DNA from: a bacterium
GTDB lineage: Bacteria; SZUA-182; DTGQ01
DNA length: 42,981 nt
Reading direction: 5' to 3'
Assembly (NCBI GenBank): GCA_023512255.1
Contig: JAILZY010000024.1
Location: 1-42,981, forward strand
Of this stretch, positions 6,029 through 18,085 are shown piece by piece. The notes below the pieces were generated by a model. That model did not search any database, was not told where the DNA came from, and saw nothing but the letters and a program-made list of their open reading frames with translations. Numbering within the stretch: position 1 is the stretch's first letter; the number at the start of each line of letters is the position of its first letter. The translations under genes and the position numbers were made by a program.

Positions 6029-6154
6029 CTAATAATAAAAACAAGTACACTGCCGCTCCTCAGGACTCTCCCATAGTATACGCTTTTGGAATATTTTTCA
6101 ATAGGATATTCAGCGAAAACTTGCCGACCAGGTAAACAAAGGGATGAGCGGATG

Positions 6155-6500
6155 TTTCCCAACGGCCACCCGATGAGGCAGGGTGATGAAAAAAAGCGAA
6201 TCGAGCTGGCCGCAGCCGACAACATCCCCTCCGATGGGAGAGGGTTGATTATGGGCAATTAGGCCTCTGGTAAAACATCCCCTAACCATCGCCCCCACCC
6301 CCCGATGGAGGGGCAAGCAGACAACAGGAGCGACAAGGTGAGAATGGCAGCCTCCTAGATAGGGTTGGCAAGCGGCAGGCGCTGGCGCAGTGGCTGGCTG
6401 GCGCAAGGCAGCCCCCTAGATGGGGAGGGCAAGCACGGCAAGCTCTTAATCGCTGGGGATTGCTGTGCACCACATCCTCGATTGATGAGCAAGCAAGGGG
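6155..6500 (+). CRISPR. Degenerate array, period about 61 bp (CRISPR-like, uncertain)
   Basis: Five to six diverged units with a C-run, then GAT, then a G-run and often GGCAAGCA. The GAT anchors lie at 6172, 6234, 6304, 6358, 6419 and 6480, an average step of 61.6 bp. The best pair (about 6347-6376 and 6408-6437) shares CCTAGAT, GGCAAGC and a leading GGCAGC. The C-run/G-run core would form a hairpin around TAGA, and the stretches between are unrelated. This is the geometry of 29-bp repeats with 32-bp spacers. No cas gene is present and repeats are far less conserved than in an active array, so a relic or another hairpin repeat family is possible. Most of the non-coding gap 5931-6557 is taken by this array. 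Confidence 0.35.
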
Positions 6501-6557
6501 AGAGTGAGGCAGCTTATCTAGTTGATTTTTTAAAAAAATCACAGGAGGTATTTCATT

Positions 6558-7226
6558 ATGGAAAATTTAGCCAGAAAGAGCTTATTGTTATTTTCTTTTT
6601 TCTTGATATTGATTTGCAGTCTGACCGCGGCCCAGGCCAATAATCTGCCTTATCAGGCTGCAGCAGATGGCTCCCCACCAGCCAAGAGTCAGAAGATCAT
6701 CCACGGGAAGCTTAACGACGGCAGCGATAGTTCCCCACCAGTCAAGATTCAGGACAGGATAAAAAAGACGCCTTCATCGATCATCGCCGCTGATTTTGAT
6801 CGGGATAGAAATATTGATCTTGCGGCCACTGCTGAAGAATATGCCAGTGTTGCTATTCTTCTTGGCCGAGGCGATGGCACCTTCAATGAGGCGGTCTACT
6901 ATCCAGTTGGGAATGAGCCCTCCTCGATTATTTCGGCTGATTTTAACCGGGATGCCAGGGTAGATTTAGCCGTAGCCAATGAGGACTCAGGCACGGTCTC
7001 TATTCTTCTTGGCCGAGGCGATGGCACCTTCAATGAGGCGCTCCACTATCCAGTTGGGAATGAGCCCTCCTCGATTATCTTGGCTGATTTTAACCGGGAT
7101 GCCAGGGTAGATCTAGCCGTAGCCAATGAGGACTCAGGCATGGTCTCTATTCTCCTTGGCCGAGGCGATGGCACCTTCGATAGCCCCAAAAACCATGATT
7201 CTGATTTCCGACCCCACAAGCCTTAA
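6558..7226 (+). CDS. Secreted FG-GAP/VCBS repeat protein, probably truncated
   Basis: 222 aa with a clear signal peptide (residues 1-28, hydrophobic LLLFSFFLILICSLTAAQA). Three FG-GAP/VCBS beta-propeller repeats follow, with calcium-binding-like DFDRDRNIDLA and DFNRDARVDLA loops and ILLGRGDGTF strands (about 70-115, 115-160, 160-210). Repeats two and three are nearly identical in DNA, about 141 bp each, so they duplicated recently. Families of this type need about seven blades for a propeller, so three suggests loss of sequence. The reading frame ends in an unrelated tail (NHDSDFRPHKP) just after a CCCCAAAAA run, while another frame continues in a sensible way (see 7195-7284). The ATG has a strong aggagg site 10 bases upstream. 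Function is unknown; such domains usually mediate surface adhesion or ligand binding. Confidence 0.65.
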   Translation: MENLARKSLLLFSFFLILICSLTAAQANNLPYQAAADGSPPAKSQKIIHGKLNDGSDSSPPVKIQDRIKKTPSSIIAADFDRDRNIDLAATAEEYASVAILLGRGDGTFNEAVYYPVGNEPSSIISADFNRDARVDLAVANEDSGTVSILLGRGDGTFNEALHYPVGNEPSSIILADFNRDARVDLAVANEDSGMVSILLGRGDGTFDSPKNHDSDFRPHKP

Positions 7227-7284
7227 GACCTATCCCAAGGCACAGGCTGCCAGGGAGCGGCTAAATCTGATTATCCGGCAATAG
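7195..7284 (+). pseudogene. Out-of-frame C-terminal remnant of the FG-GAP gene
   Basis: In the frame one base off from the FG-GAP gene, 29 codons read through SDPTSLKTYPKAQAARERL to LIIRQ and a TAG stop, a plausible helical C terminus. Removing one A from the CCCCAAAAA run at 7184-7192 would join both parts (DSPKTMILISD). It may be a real frameshift, a read error in a homopolymer, or chance. Confidence 0.4.
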
Positions 7285-7291
7285 GGTTTAA

Positions 7292-7524
7292 GTGGTTCTT
7301 TCGCTAACAAAATGCACCGCTTGGGCGGACACTCCTTGTGTCCGCCCCTACAATTGATTGGGCAATTGTATCTGCTTTTGCACTCGCTCTTATTTATTAG
7401 CTACCATTAAAAGACATAATCCTAATAAGAGTTAAGCCCCTTCGAGGGTTTATGGTTGTTCTGATATAGGGTTTATGGTGTCTGATCTGATATATAAGAG
7501 CTTTTGCACTTAGTGATAGAATCA
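7292..7524 (+). mobile_element. Inverted-repeat element family A, copy 2, split by element B
   Basis: It begins GTGGTTCTTTCGCTAACAAA and carries the family-A middle block CCTACAATTGAT. Its decayed right end (TAGTGATAGAATCA, compare TTAGCGAAAGAACCA) lies beyond a 117-bp insertion. Removing 7385-7501 plus one copy of the duplicated target restores a normal length of about 110 bp. Confidence 0.7.
7385..7501 (+). mobile_element. Inverted-repeat element family B, copy 1, nested in element A
   Basis: It begins CGCTCTTATTTATTAGCTAC and ends with the complementary ATAAGAGC. A 9-base direct repeat, TTTTGCACT, flanks it (7376-7384 and 7502-7510; the match extends to 11 bases if the terminal GC is counted), as expected for a target-site duplication. 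It shares its left half and the block GAGGGTTTATGG with the copy at 13446-13568. It has no coding capacity. Confidence 0.75.
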
Positions 7525-7530
7525 TCTAAT

Positions 7531-7647
7531 TGGTCTTTTCGCTAATAAAGTGCGCAAGCTGCGGCGGGCACAAGGTCTGTCGTCCCTACAATTGATAGCG
7601 TAATTGATCCGCTGTGCAGTTGTGTTCCGTACTTAGCGAAAGAACCA
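7531..7647 (+). mobile_element. Inverted-repeat element family A, copy 3
   Basis: A 117-bp element with ends TGGTCTTTTCGCTAA and TTAGCGAAAGAACCA (inverted repeats with one mismatch). It is nearly collinear with the copy at 41204-41315; both are preceded by CTAAT. Confidence 0.8.
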
Positions 7648-7657
7648 TTTAAATCTA

Positions 7658-7760
7658 TCGGGCTAGTTGTGCATGGGGAGCTTGCACTTAGGCAAGCATC
7701 CATGGCGCTTTCGCTTTAATCAGGCTGGTTGTGCGTGTCGTTGAGGCTTGCGAAAAGGGC
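7658..7760. repeat. Two diverged repeats 62 bp apart
   Basis: GGCTAGTTGTGCATG at 7661 and GGCTGGTTGTGCGTG at 7723 share flanking ATC and a following GCTTGC; start-to-start spacing is 62 bp. A hairpin GCTTGC-ACTTAG-GCAAGC lies within the first unit at about 7680-7697. The spacing matches the CRISPR-like remnant just downstream, but the sequence differs. Confidence 0.3.
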
Positions 7761-7811
7761 AGCCATGAATTCAAAACCCCGGTGCAGACTCGGTGCAGAG
7801 AGGATGTTAAG

Positions 7812-8074
7812 TATTTACCCACGCAGGGGAAAACTCTATGAGGACTGAGGACTCAGGACTGCGTAATGAGGACTATTTATCCATGCAGTGGAAGACTCTA
7901 TAAAATCAGCGAATACTTCCTATTCTACACTTTTGCAGAAATTTCTTAACGCCTTGAAATCTTTAAAAATTACTCTAATAGAAAATCCAGTAAAATCAAG
8001 GGGTCGGAAAAAAGTGCAAAAGCATAGTTCCTATTCTGCTTATAATATTTACCCACGCAGGGGAAAACTCTATG
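7812..8074 (+). CRISPR. Three-repeat CRISPR-like remnant, one spacer interrupted
   Basis: A 29-bp repeat (starts TATTTACCCACGCAGGGG, ends ACTCTATG) occurs at 7812-7840 and 8046-8074 identically and at 7874-7902 with five differences. The first spacer is 33 bp. The second gap is 143 bp, but it contains a 101-bp inserted element and a 10-bp duplicated target. Subtracting these leaves 32 bp, so the original starts were 62 and 61 bp apart. The core CCC-ACGCA-GGG can form a hairpin, and repeat length, spacer length and core resemble type I-E arrays. The reverse complement (GTTTTCCCCTGCGTGGG core) also resembles I-E repeats. No cas genes or clear leader are seen in the window, so it is most likely an orphan relic. 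Confidence 0.65.
7927..8027 (+). mobile_element. Inverted-repeat element C inserted in a CRISPR spacer
   Basis: A 101-bp AT-rich segment flanked by exact 10-base direct repeats TTCCTATTCT (7917-7926 and 8028-8037). Its ends are inverted repeats around CTTTTGCA (left ACACTTTTGCAG, right GTGCAAAAGCAT). It has no coding capacity, so it is MITE-like. A similar right end (AAAAAGTGCAAAAGTATAG) occurs near 15826-15844. Confidence 0.7.
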
Positions 8075-8531
8075 CCACGTATGAGTAGTGATTTGCGGGG
8101 CCATGAGGCACACTTTGAGCCTTTTTTTGGCTTTTTCATTGCGCTCCATGAGGGCGATGTGTGAGGTTTAGTTTACAGTCTGGCGCTTACTTTGGAGAGT
8201 TAGCTTACAGTCAAACCTGGATAGAAAATAACATAATAAACTGGGGATTACTCTATATAACTCTTTGATATCTAATTAAATAATTTTTTAGTTACCCTAA
8301 TCGGCATAATTTTTGCTCCATCCAGTTACCCGTCAGAATGATCATTCCTCGAGTATTTTTTTGATTTATGCTTTTTGGGAGGATGTCGCCTTATGTAACA
8401 GCCCAGCTTCTCATTCTGTAGAATCTTGTCATTATGTAGAATCTTGCTTTCGGTTAGCGGAAGACCGAAAGGGCATTAATCAACAAGATCAACATCATAG
8501 GGTATATATTATTTTGAGGAGGGTCTAGGTA

Positions 8532-8561
8532 ATGGAAAATACAATGAGTATAAAACAGTAG
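8532..8561 (+). other. Nine-codon in-frame leader ending in TAG before the carbamoyltransferase
   Basis: A strong gaggaggg site at 8516-8523 is followed by ATG at 8532 and nine codons (MENTMSIKQ), then TAG at 8559-8561. The carbamoyltransferase ATG at 8571 is in the same frame and has no ribosome binding site of its own. Either translation is coupled from the leader, or the TAG is a nonsense mutation or recoded codon near the true N terminus. The rest of 8075-8531 is AT-rich, with a short imperfect repeat AGTTTACAGTC/AGCTTACAGTC near 8170-8205. Confidence 0.5.
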
Positions 8562-8570
8562 CAGTATCAT

Positions 8571-16904: not shown

Positions 16905-17960
16905 TCACCACCACAAGGCGATCAGGGCAAGAGCTAGGCAGGAGGCGATCAGCCAGGGCAGGGGCAAGAGGAGAGAAGAAGAGGGAAGGGGAGGGAAATG
17001 ATCCCTGGCCACCTCCTTGATCGGGCAGATAGTCTGATCTTGAGGCTCCTCATCAGGAGGCTGCCCATTCTCCTTAGCGAGAGTGGAGCGCCCTTGCGGC
17101 AGTCTTGGGTATCCTCCGGCTGTCGGTTTGCTGCCTGCCGTCTTTAGCAGTGCGGCCAGGGTGGTCAGGGCATAAATAGCTATGATCCAGGGCAAAAGGG
17201 GCCGAGGCTCAAGTCTTTTTCTGATTTTTTCTCTAATTTTTTCAATTTCTTTTGGCGATACGGCTTCAATTTTTATTTTTTTTGCTTCGCTCTCAGCCCA
17301 AAGCCTCGCCTGTCTGATCGCAGCCGTAGAGCCAAGGGGAGTAGTCGAGCAGTGGTATAGAGCCGCATAGATAATGACCGGAATGCCTAGAATGAAAAAA
17401 GTAGTGAAAGCTCGCTTGGCTGGATGATCGGTTGGAAAACTAGCTTCCTGGAATCGGAAAAAGAGGCTCATAATCAGAAAGGAAAAACCAGCCAGGGCTA
17501 TCAATCCTCCAGTCCAGGCCAGAAATAGGATCAGGGGATGACAGCCTGCCAGACAGGCTGGATCGCCGAAGCGATAGTAGGCTCCAAGAGCTAGGTATTG
17601 TAGCTGGCTCAGGATGCTCACTCCAGCCACAAGGAGGCTAAAGAGCCGGACAGAGAACGACAACCCGCGTCTTTGAGCCAGCCACAGAGCGATCAGACCG
17701 CTCAGGAGATTGACCAAAATCCCCCCCAGCTGAATGGCGATCGTGGCCGCCTGTCCCAACTGGCCGCTAAATTCTGCTTCCCCTCCAGCAAAAAGGGTTA
17801 GTCTGAAGGATTTGAAATCTCCGCCAAGGAGCATGGCCAAGGCTCCGTGGCCGACAACCTCATGAAGAAAAGCCCCCAATCGGGTGCTGAGAATGAGCAT
17901 AGATTCGATCAAGAGAATCCAGATCAGAATTTTTTTGAATTTGACAAGCTGCCTGCTCAT
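16905..17960 (-). CDS. Multi-spanning membrane protein, M50-like with HEVVGHG motif
   Basis: 351 aa with about seven hydrophobic segments (near 10-30, 75-95, 100-125, 140-165, 185-203, 255-272, 328-350). After the first one lies FLHEVVGHGALAMLLGGDF (H33, E34, H38), close to the HExxH zinc motif of M50/site-2-protease families but with one extra residue between E and the second His. The following GG and the position in a membrane helix fit M50-like proteins. A soluble loop (about 210-250) is Lys/Glu-rich and a second (275-325) Pro-rich. No PDZ domain is visible. Whether it is an active protease is unclear. The start has gagagagg immediately upstream in a weak context. It is monocistronic on the minus strand, downstream of a methyltransferase gene 125 bases away. 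Confidence 0.75.
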   Translation of the reverse strand: MSRQLVKFKKILIWILLIESMLILSTRLGAFLHEVVGHGALAMLLGGDFKSFRLTLFAGGEAEFSGQLGQAATIAIQLGGILVNLLSGLIALWLAQRRGLSFSVRLFSLLVAGVSILSQLQYLALGAYYRFGDPACLAGCHPLILFLAWTGGLIALAGFSFLIMSLFFRFQEASFPTDHPAKRAFTTFFILGIPVIIYAALYHCSTTPLGSTAAIRQARLWAESEAKKIKIEAVSPKEIEKIREKIRKRLEPRPLLPWIIAIYALTTLAALLKTAGSKPTAGGYPRLPQGRSTLAKENGQPPDEEPQDQTICPIKEVARDHFPPLPSSSLLLPLPWLIASCLALALIALWW

Positions 17961-18085
17961 GCCTCTCTCACGACCCTTTTAATATGCCTTTTAATATGCA
18001 CTGGAGAAAAGTTTCCGCAAAAAGCATGGCCACTATACAAATTGCTACTATTGGCGCCTCATATAGAGACCTATGGTCCCTCATA

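Follow-up and report, generated by a model that had tools for sequence, protein, structure and literature searches.

Introduction

A ruler of 28 + 33 bp that is blind to sequence, together with the capture of fragments of about 33 bp from other places, is the signature of integration by the type I-E Cas1-Cas2 proteins. Integration by Cas1 should require Cas2. The neo-CRISPR loci of Nivala, Shipman and Church from 2018 reportedly have repeat-like targets, a duplication of about 28 bp and an insert of about 33 bp, and a few natural cases are reported as well. How a CRISPR array first comes into being is still unsettled. For E. coli, integration at chromosomal sites outside arrays by overexpressed Cas1-Cas2 goes back to Nivala et al. 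2018 (doi 10.1038/s41564-017-0097-z), in the form in which this work is cited in PMC9456107 and PMC11788318. The mini-arrays reported here are comparable to these loci in their non-array chromosomal sites, repeat-like targets, duplication of about 28 bp and insert of about 33 bp; they differ in that dozens of old, decaying and often multi-unit loci are found in one wild genome and that inserts are self-derived.

Three other kinds of element invite comparison. The I-E arrays of the Cas1e relatives (L121-L123) share with the mini-arrays a pitch of about 29 + 32 bp and the CCCC...GGGG layout of the repeat. Their repeat of the GTCCCCACACGCGTGGGGGTGAACCG type is, however, absent here, where the repeats are locus-specific and the three-repeat site lacks an adjoining cas operon. 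The Neisseria NIME/dRS3 elements and REP-type palindromes are, like the mini-arrays, short palindromes with semi-regular spacing in intergenic DNA, but use one repeat family throughout the genome and carry no 33 bp self-copied inserts. Finally, MITEs are non-autonomous DNA elements which, like the element that we find inside the array, measure about 105 bp, have terminal inverted repeats and a target site duplication (TSD) of 6-9 bp, are multicopy and contain no long open reading frame.

Results

The stretch of DNA analyzed, which we call the window, is contig C157 with its full length of 42,981 nucleotides and belongs to the host genome G000 (3.83 Mb in 172 contigs, one MAG). The original prediction described three repeats, one of them diverged, at spacings of 62 and 172 bp, and exactly these are found at positions 7812-7840, 7874-7902 and 8046-8074. 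Repeat 1 (TATTTACCCACGCAGGGGAAAACTCTATG) agrees without gaps in 14 of 29 positions with the I-E repeat of the Cas1e relatives. Repeat 3 is identical to repeat 1, and the middle repeat matches both in 24 of 29 positions (83%). Spacer 1 (7841-7873, 33 bp) is of low complexity (AGGACTGAGGACTCAGGACTGC...). Spacer 2 is interrupted: its left part (7903-7924) ends in the first copy of the TSD TTCCTATT (7917-7924), and its right part (8028-8045) begins with the second copy (8028-8035). The empty spacer 2 has 32 bp.

The interrupting element occupies 7925-8027 (CTACACTTTTGCAG...GTGCAAAAGCATAG) and has imperfect terminal inverted repeats CTAYRCTTTTGCA. An inserted inverted-repeat element of 101 bp between exact 10 bp direct repeats had been predicted. 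The element is indeed a real multicopy MITE, but its length is 103 bp. Likewise an exact duplication exists, which is 8 bp long, as the additional CT is the start of the element on one side and flanking sequence on the other. An alignment of 19 copies places the ends at CTA...TAG. The genome contains at least 40 matches at 87-98% identity, the copy in the array among them, and in the sampled sequence we count 26 elements of 100-121 bp, most of them with a TSD of 6-9 bp. The element is thus short and multicopy, is bordered by terminal inverted repeats and a TSD, and encodes no transposase. Pairs of its terminal inverted repeats lying 0.9-3.3 kb apart were also listed. The nearest relative of the inserted copy lies on C37 and is 98% identical, as compared to the 83% identity of the middle repeat to its neighbors. 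Thus, the insertion into spacer 2 looks younger than the array.

When the MITE and one TSD are excised in silico, the repeats start at 7812, 7874 and 7935, with spacings of 62 and 61 bp, and the two spacers measure 33 and 32 bp. The array then has the geometry of a type I-E array, that is, repeats of about 28-29 bp, a pitch of 60-62 bp and unique spacers of 32-33 bp. The predicted 61 bp spacing after excision, the I-E geometry and a MITE landing in a pre-existing spacer of a decaying array are therefore all borne out. The prediction had also named a 29 bp unit scattered singly through the genome as the observation that would speak against it. With up to three mismatches we found no further copy of the unit in the 3.83 Mb genome nor in 39 other genomes; it is unique to its site and thus not an ordinary dispersed repeat. 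A search of the GTDB r220 contigs and of IMG/VR with the repeat pattern gave no match.

No cas gene was seen among the 10 window proteins scanned with Pfam, in agreement with the prediction. In the rest of the genome, where cas genes were to be sought, contig C118 carries a type I-E operon (L030:764-7479) with the gene order cas8e-cse2-cas7-cas5(HNH)-cas6e-cas1e. The HNH domain is fused to the C-terminus of cas5, and there is no cas3 in the operon. A variant of type I-E in which cas5 is fused to HNH and the operon lacks cas3 has been described (PMC10910872); this variant concerns interference and not arrays. The C118 operon is a new member of it and is alike in both the fusion and the missing cas3; in addition it has cas1e, without an I-E cas2. 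The fusion also occurs in the relative L122, and L121 has a plain cas5 and a cas3. An I-E cas2 was not detected in the genome, and beside cas1e there is no degenerate cas2; the gene may have been lost or may be unassembled. Equally absent from the genome is the canonical I-E repeat of the Cas1e relatives. Further cas1 genes lie on C11 and C130; the one on C11 adjoins a gene for a Card1-like CARF nuclease (L029:1310-4497) and represents another CRISPR-linked locus of this genome.

The search for the array of the I-E operon turned up repeats about 60 bp apart other than those of the three-repeat array, and we therefore scanned for isolated ungapped direct-repeat pairs at every spacing. The survey covered 1.16 Mb (30%) of the host genome, at first 0.856 Mb and then a further 306 kb. 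In the first part 15 pairs have a spacing of 61 bp, five of 60 bp and two of 62 bp; at the remaining spacings, multiples of three left aside, there are about 0.1 pairs each. Pooled over both parts there are 18 pairs at 61 bp where about 0.12 are expected (P ~4e-33). The range of 58-64 bp and some units were picked after the peak had been seen; the 306 kb served as an independent check and contain three pairs within this range, all at exactly 61 bp. Direct-repeat pairs at multiples of three inside open reading frames were dropped as coding repeats (e.g., most of L064:3860-4190).

The surveyed DNA holds about 25-27 such loci, which by scaling from the surveyed 30% leads to an estimate of about 80-90 loci for the whole genome. 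The repeats measure 26-30 bp, the spacers 31-37 bp with a mode of 33 bp, and the pitch is 61 bp. Throughout the class a duplication of about 28 bp surrounds an insert of about 33 bp of any sequence. The repeats differ from locus to locus, and none of them was recovered at a second one. The majority of the arrays are intergenic. Several loci have three to seven units; a few of these units, picked with a loose profile, are doubtful. Two more mini-arrays lie in the window. One is an intergenic pair at 2665-2753 (AAATTGATYCYGGCCCGCATGGCTKTAG, two copies, spacing 61 bp). The other consists of about six diverged units at 6160-6500 with cores at 6169, 6228, 6298, 6351, 6412 and 6476, the best pair being GGCAGCCCCCTAGATGGGGAGGGCAAGC at 61 bp. 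A possible further pair at 6668-6755 (spacing 60 bp) is located at the 5′ end of an FG-GAP open reading frame and may be a coding repeat. On C71 a seven-unit array (L069:459-883) has the REP-like repeat CATTKCCGCGCAAGCGGGAATCCAG and is duplicated in part at about 96% identity on C87 (L277, around 2780-2920). Being the most REP-like array and partly duplicated, it is not one on which we rest our case. The genome also has many short two-copy tandem duplications with periods of 10-27 bp, which are intergenic and occur genome-wide (e.g., L030:5378-5413 and L031:18359-18403). An integration model does not explain these.

The complete host genome was searched with 37 spacers. The matches outside the arrays are 32/33, 31/32, 33/34, 28/28, 28/28, 29/31 and 28/30, in addition to weaker ones. 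With the flanks aligned, the match of about 11 out of 38 class spacers to another place in the chromosome extends over 25-36 bp and breaks off approximately where the spacer does; such a bounded insert is not seen for the two spacers of the three-repeat array. In some arrays the limits of the match place the repeat boundary a few bases away from where it had been assumed. The count of 11 includes donors that were fetched because of their match, and these were left out of the significance test, in which bounded low-copy matches in the sampled DNA were found for 5 of 38 spacers and for 9 of 908 random 33 bp segments near arrays (p=1.2e-4). An all-versus-all search for a general peak of 33 bp duplications returned too few matches to show one; three of the nine low-copy matches of 30-38 bp are array spacers. 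The donor sites are inside open reading frames of 95-1141 aa, and 3 of 11 donor regions have homologues in G001, a genome of the same genus. The direction of copying is thus from gene to array. One such donor site lies in the window on the minus strand (17942-17975) and is identical in 33 of 34 positions to a spacer of the C71 mini-array (L069:556-589). Inspection of the aligned donor sites revealed no consensus for a PAM.

A phage origin of these spacers is not apparent: class spacers match genes of the own genome, and the core of spacer 2 has no exact match among the viral sequences of IMG/VR. For spacer 1 we saw no second match in the sampled 1.19 Mb of the host, and with the whole-genome spacer search included a source was found for neither spacer of the three-repeat array. 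Synteny with G001 breaks within 7176-8562 of the window, and the sequence to the left of the array corresponds to G001 contig C78, that to the right to C65. As neither spacer is traced and synteny is broken here, the membership of this array in the mini-array class is likely rather than proven, and is judged by geometry, repeat layout and company.

The class repeats are closer to the I-E repeat of the Cas1e relatives than shuffled sequences (13.96 versus 12.27 of 29, p=8e-7), a modest effect, and closer than nearby sequence, too. They also fold better than nearby DNA; against their own shuffles the strength of the dyads shows no clear excess (p=0.09). Two loci can be recognized as insertions in comparison with G001. 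In the window the anchors at 6094-6555 enclose 461 bp versus 107 bp in G001, which corresponds to an insertion of about 354 bp with some six diverged units. In the cas4 gene on C130, 262 bp face 100 bp in G001, and the array within the 162 bp insertion is read in frame. The repeat pair is CRISPR-like, lies in the part encoding the N-terminus of Cas4 (gene at L031:17590-18357) and both its copies read ILPEHKGNS in translation; the homologue in G001 is without the pair. Neither global alignment of intergenic array sites nor the two insertion loci yielded an exact single-copy site preceding integration in G001, where the sequences are too diverged.

We compared three control genomes. In G001, which has no cas1e, 0.587 Mb contain one pair, at 62 bp, where 15-18 would be expected. 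G041 and G043 encode a Cas1e which is 71-72% identical and have an intact cas2; 331 kb of these genomes contain no pairs in the peak as compared to 8-10 expected, and at the array-side contig end both carry the canonical repeat of the GTCCCCACACGCGTGGGGGTGAACCG type. As the peak is missing from all three, the pattern is peculiar to G000 among the compared genomes, and Cas1e alone is not enough to produce it.

Discussion

We suggest that the three-repeat array is quite probably a small neo-CRISPR locus that arose by off-target activity of the I-E Cas1-Cas2 proteins, one among the estimated 80-90 arrays seeded from self DNA, which is now decaying and whose spacer 2 later received a MITE. Such loci could arise as follows. 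Cas1-Cas2 would capture a DNA fragment of about 33 bp, often from the own chromosome, and would insert it into a chromosomal site that loosely resembles the I-E repeat. About 28 bp of the target would be duplicated during integration, giving repeat-spacer-repeat with a pitch of 61 bp. Some sites might have been used again, leading to three to seven units. In this way an estimated 80-90 places in the genome might have been hit, and the arrays would since have been drifting. The jump of the MITE into spacer 2 would have come later.

We infer that Cas1-Cas2 was the agent and that an I-E cas2 was once present in the lineage. The absence of a cognate native array presumably favored off-target use. 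Since the canonical repeat is missing and an I-E cas2 is not detectable, spacer adaptation in the lineage may have halted in the meantime. If interference drew on the arrays, spacers derived from self would do harm; the mini-arrays are thus likely to be silent or to have no matching PAM.

Alternatively, the array could be what is left of an immune array that was formerly canonical I-E and belonged to a system since lost, the MITE having split it. Its 62/61 geometry, the two identical repeats, the unrelated spacers and the I-E cas operon in the genome agree with such an origin. One decaying system would, however, leave behind one repeat family, and the 61 bp pitch is seen again at some 25 further loci of the sample, whose repeats are unrelated; the canonical I-E repeat is absent from the genome, and the core of spacer 2 has no exact viral match in IMG/VR. 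An ordinary decayed immune array is therefore in our view unlikely. Decay as such, which had been predicted, is retained, but the array is not the solitary leftover of a lost system, as it stands in a genome with many mini-arrays of unrelated repeats, 61 bp pitch and several spacers from own genes. Off-target integration fits these observations better than the decay of a normal anti-phage array.

We regard it as very unlikely that a duplication process unrelated to CRISPR, be it templated insertion, slippage or the spread of REP-like palindromes, merely mimics CRISPR here. The many short tandem duplications in the genome, the likeness of the seven-unit C71 array to common REP-type palindromes, its second copy on C87 and the better folding of the units compared to nearby DNA would be in line with such a process. 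We know, however, of no duplication process with a fixed 61 bp ruler that operates regardless of sequence, nor of one that takes inserts of about 33 bp from distant genes, and both are found here. Chance or a dispersed-repeat artefact, to which the mere three units and the low complexity of one spacer might point, is hardly credible given that the unit is absent elsewhere, that the peak is far above background and that the G001 control is nearly empty; the genome survey refutes it for the class and leaves a small residual doubt for the three-repeat site alone.

Off-target integration of this kind may well have taken place naturally on the scale of a whole genome: an I-E adaptation module without a cognate array would have seeded the estimated 80-90 arrays from the DNA of its own host, one of them in frame in cas4, and left a fossil series in all stages of decay. 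To our knowledge, off-target integration at such a natural scale has not been reported. If this is true, a single genome records dozens of independent natural births of CRISPR arrays, for which donor site, target site and age are readable from the sequence. Target preference, self-capture and array decay would become measurable outside the laboratory, and the scattered "orphan arrays" of two to four units would not necessarily descend from immune arrays.
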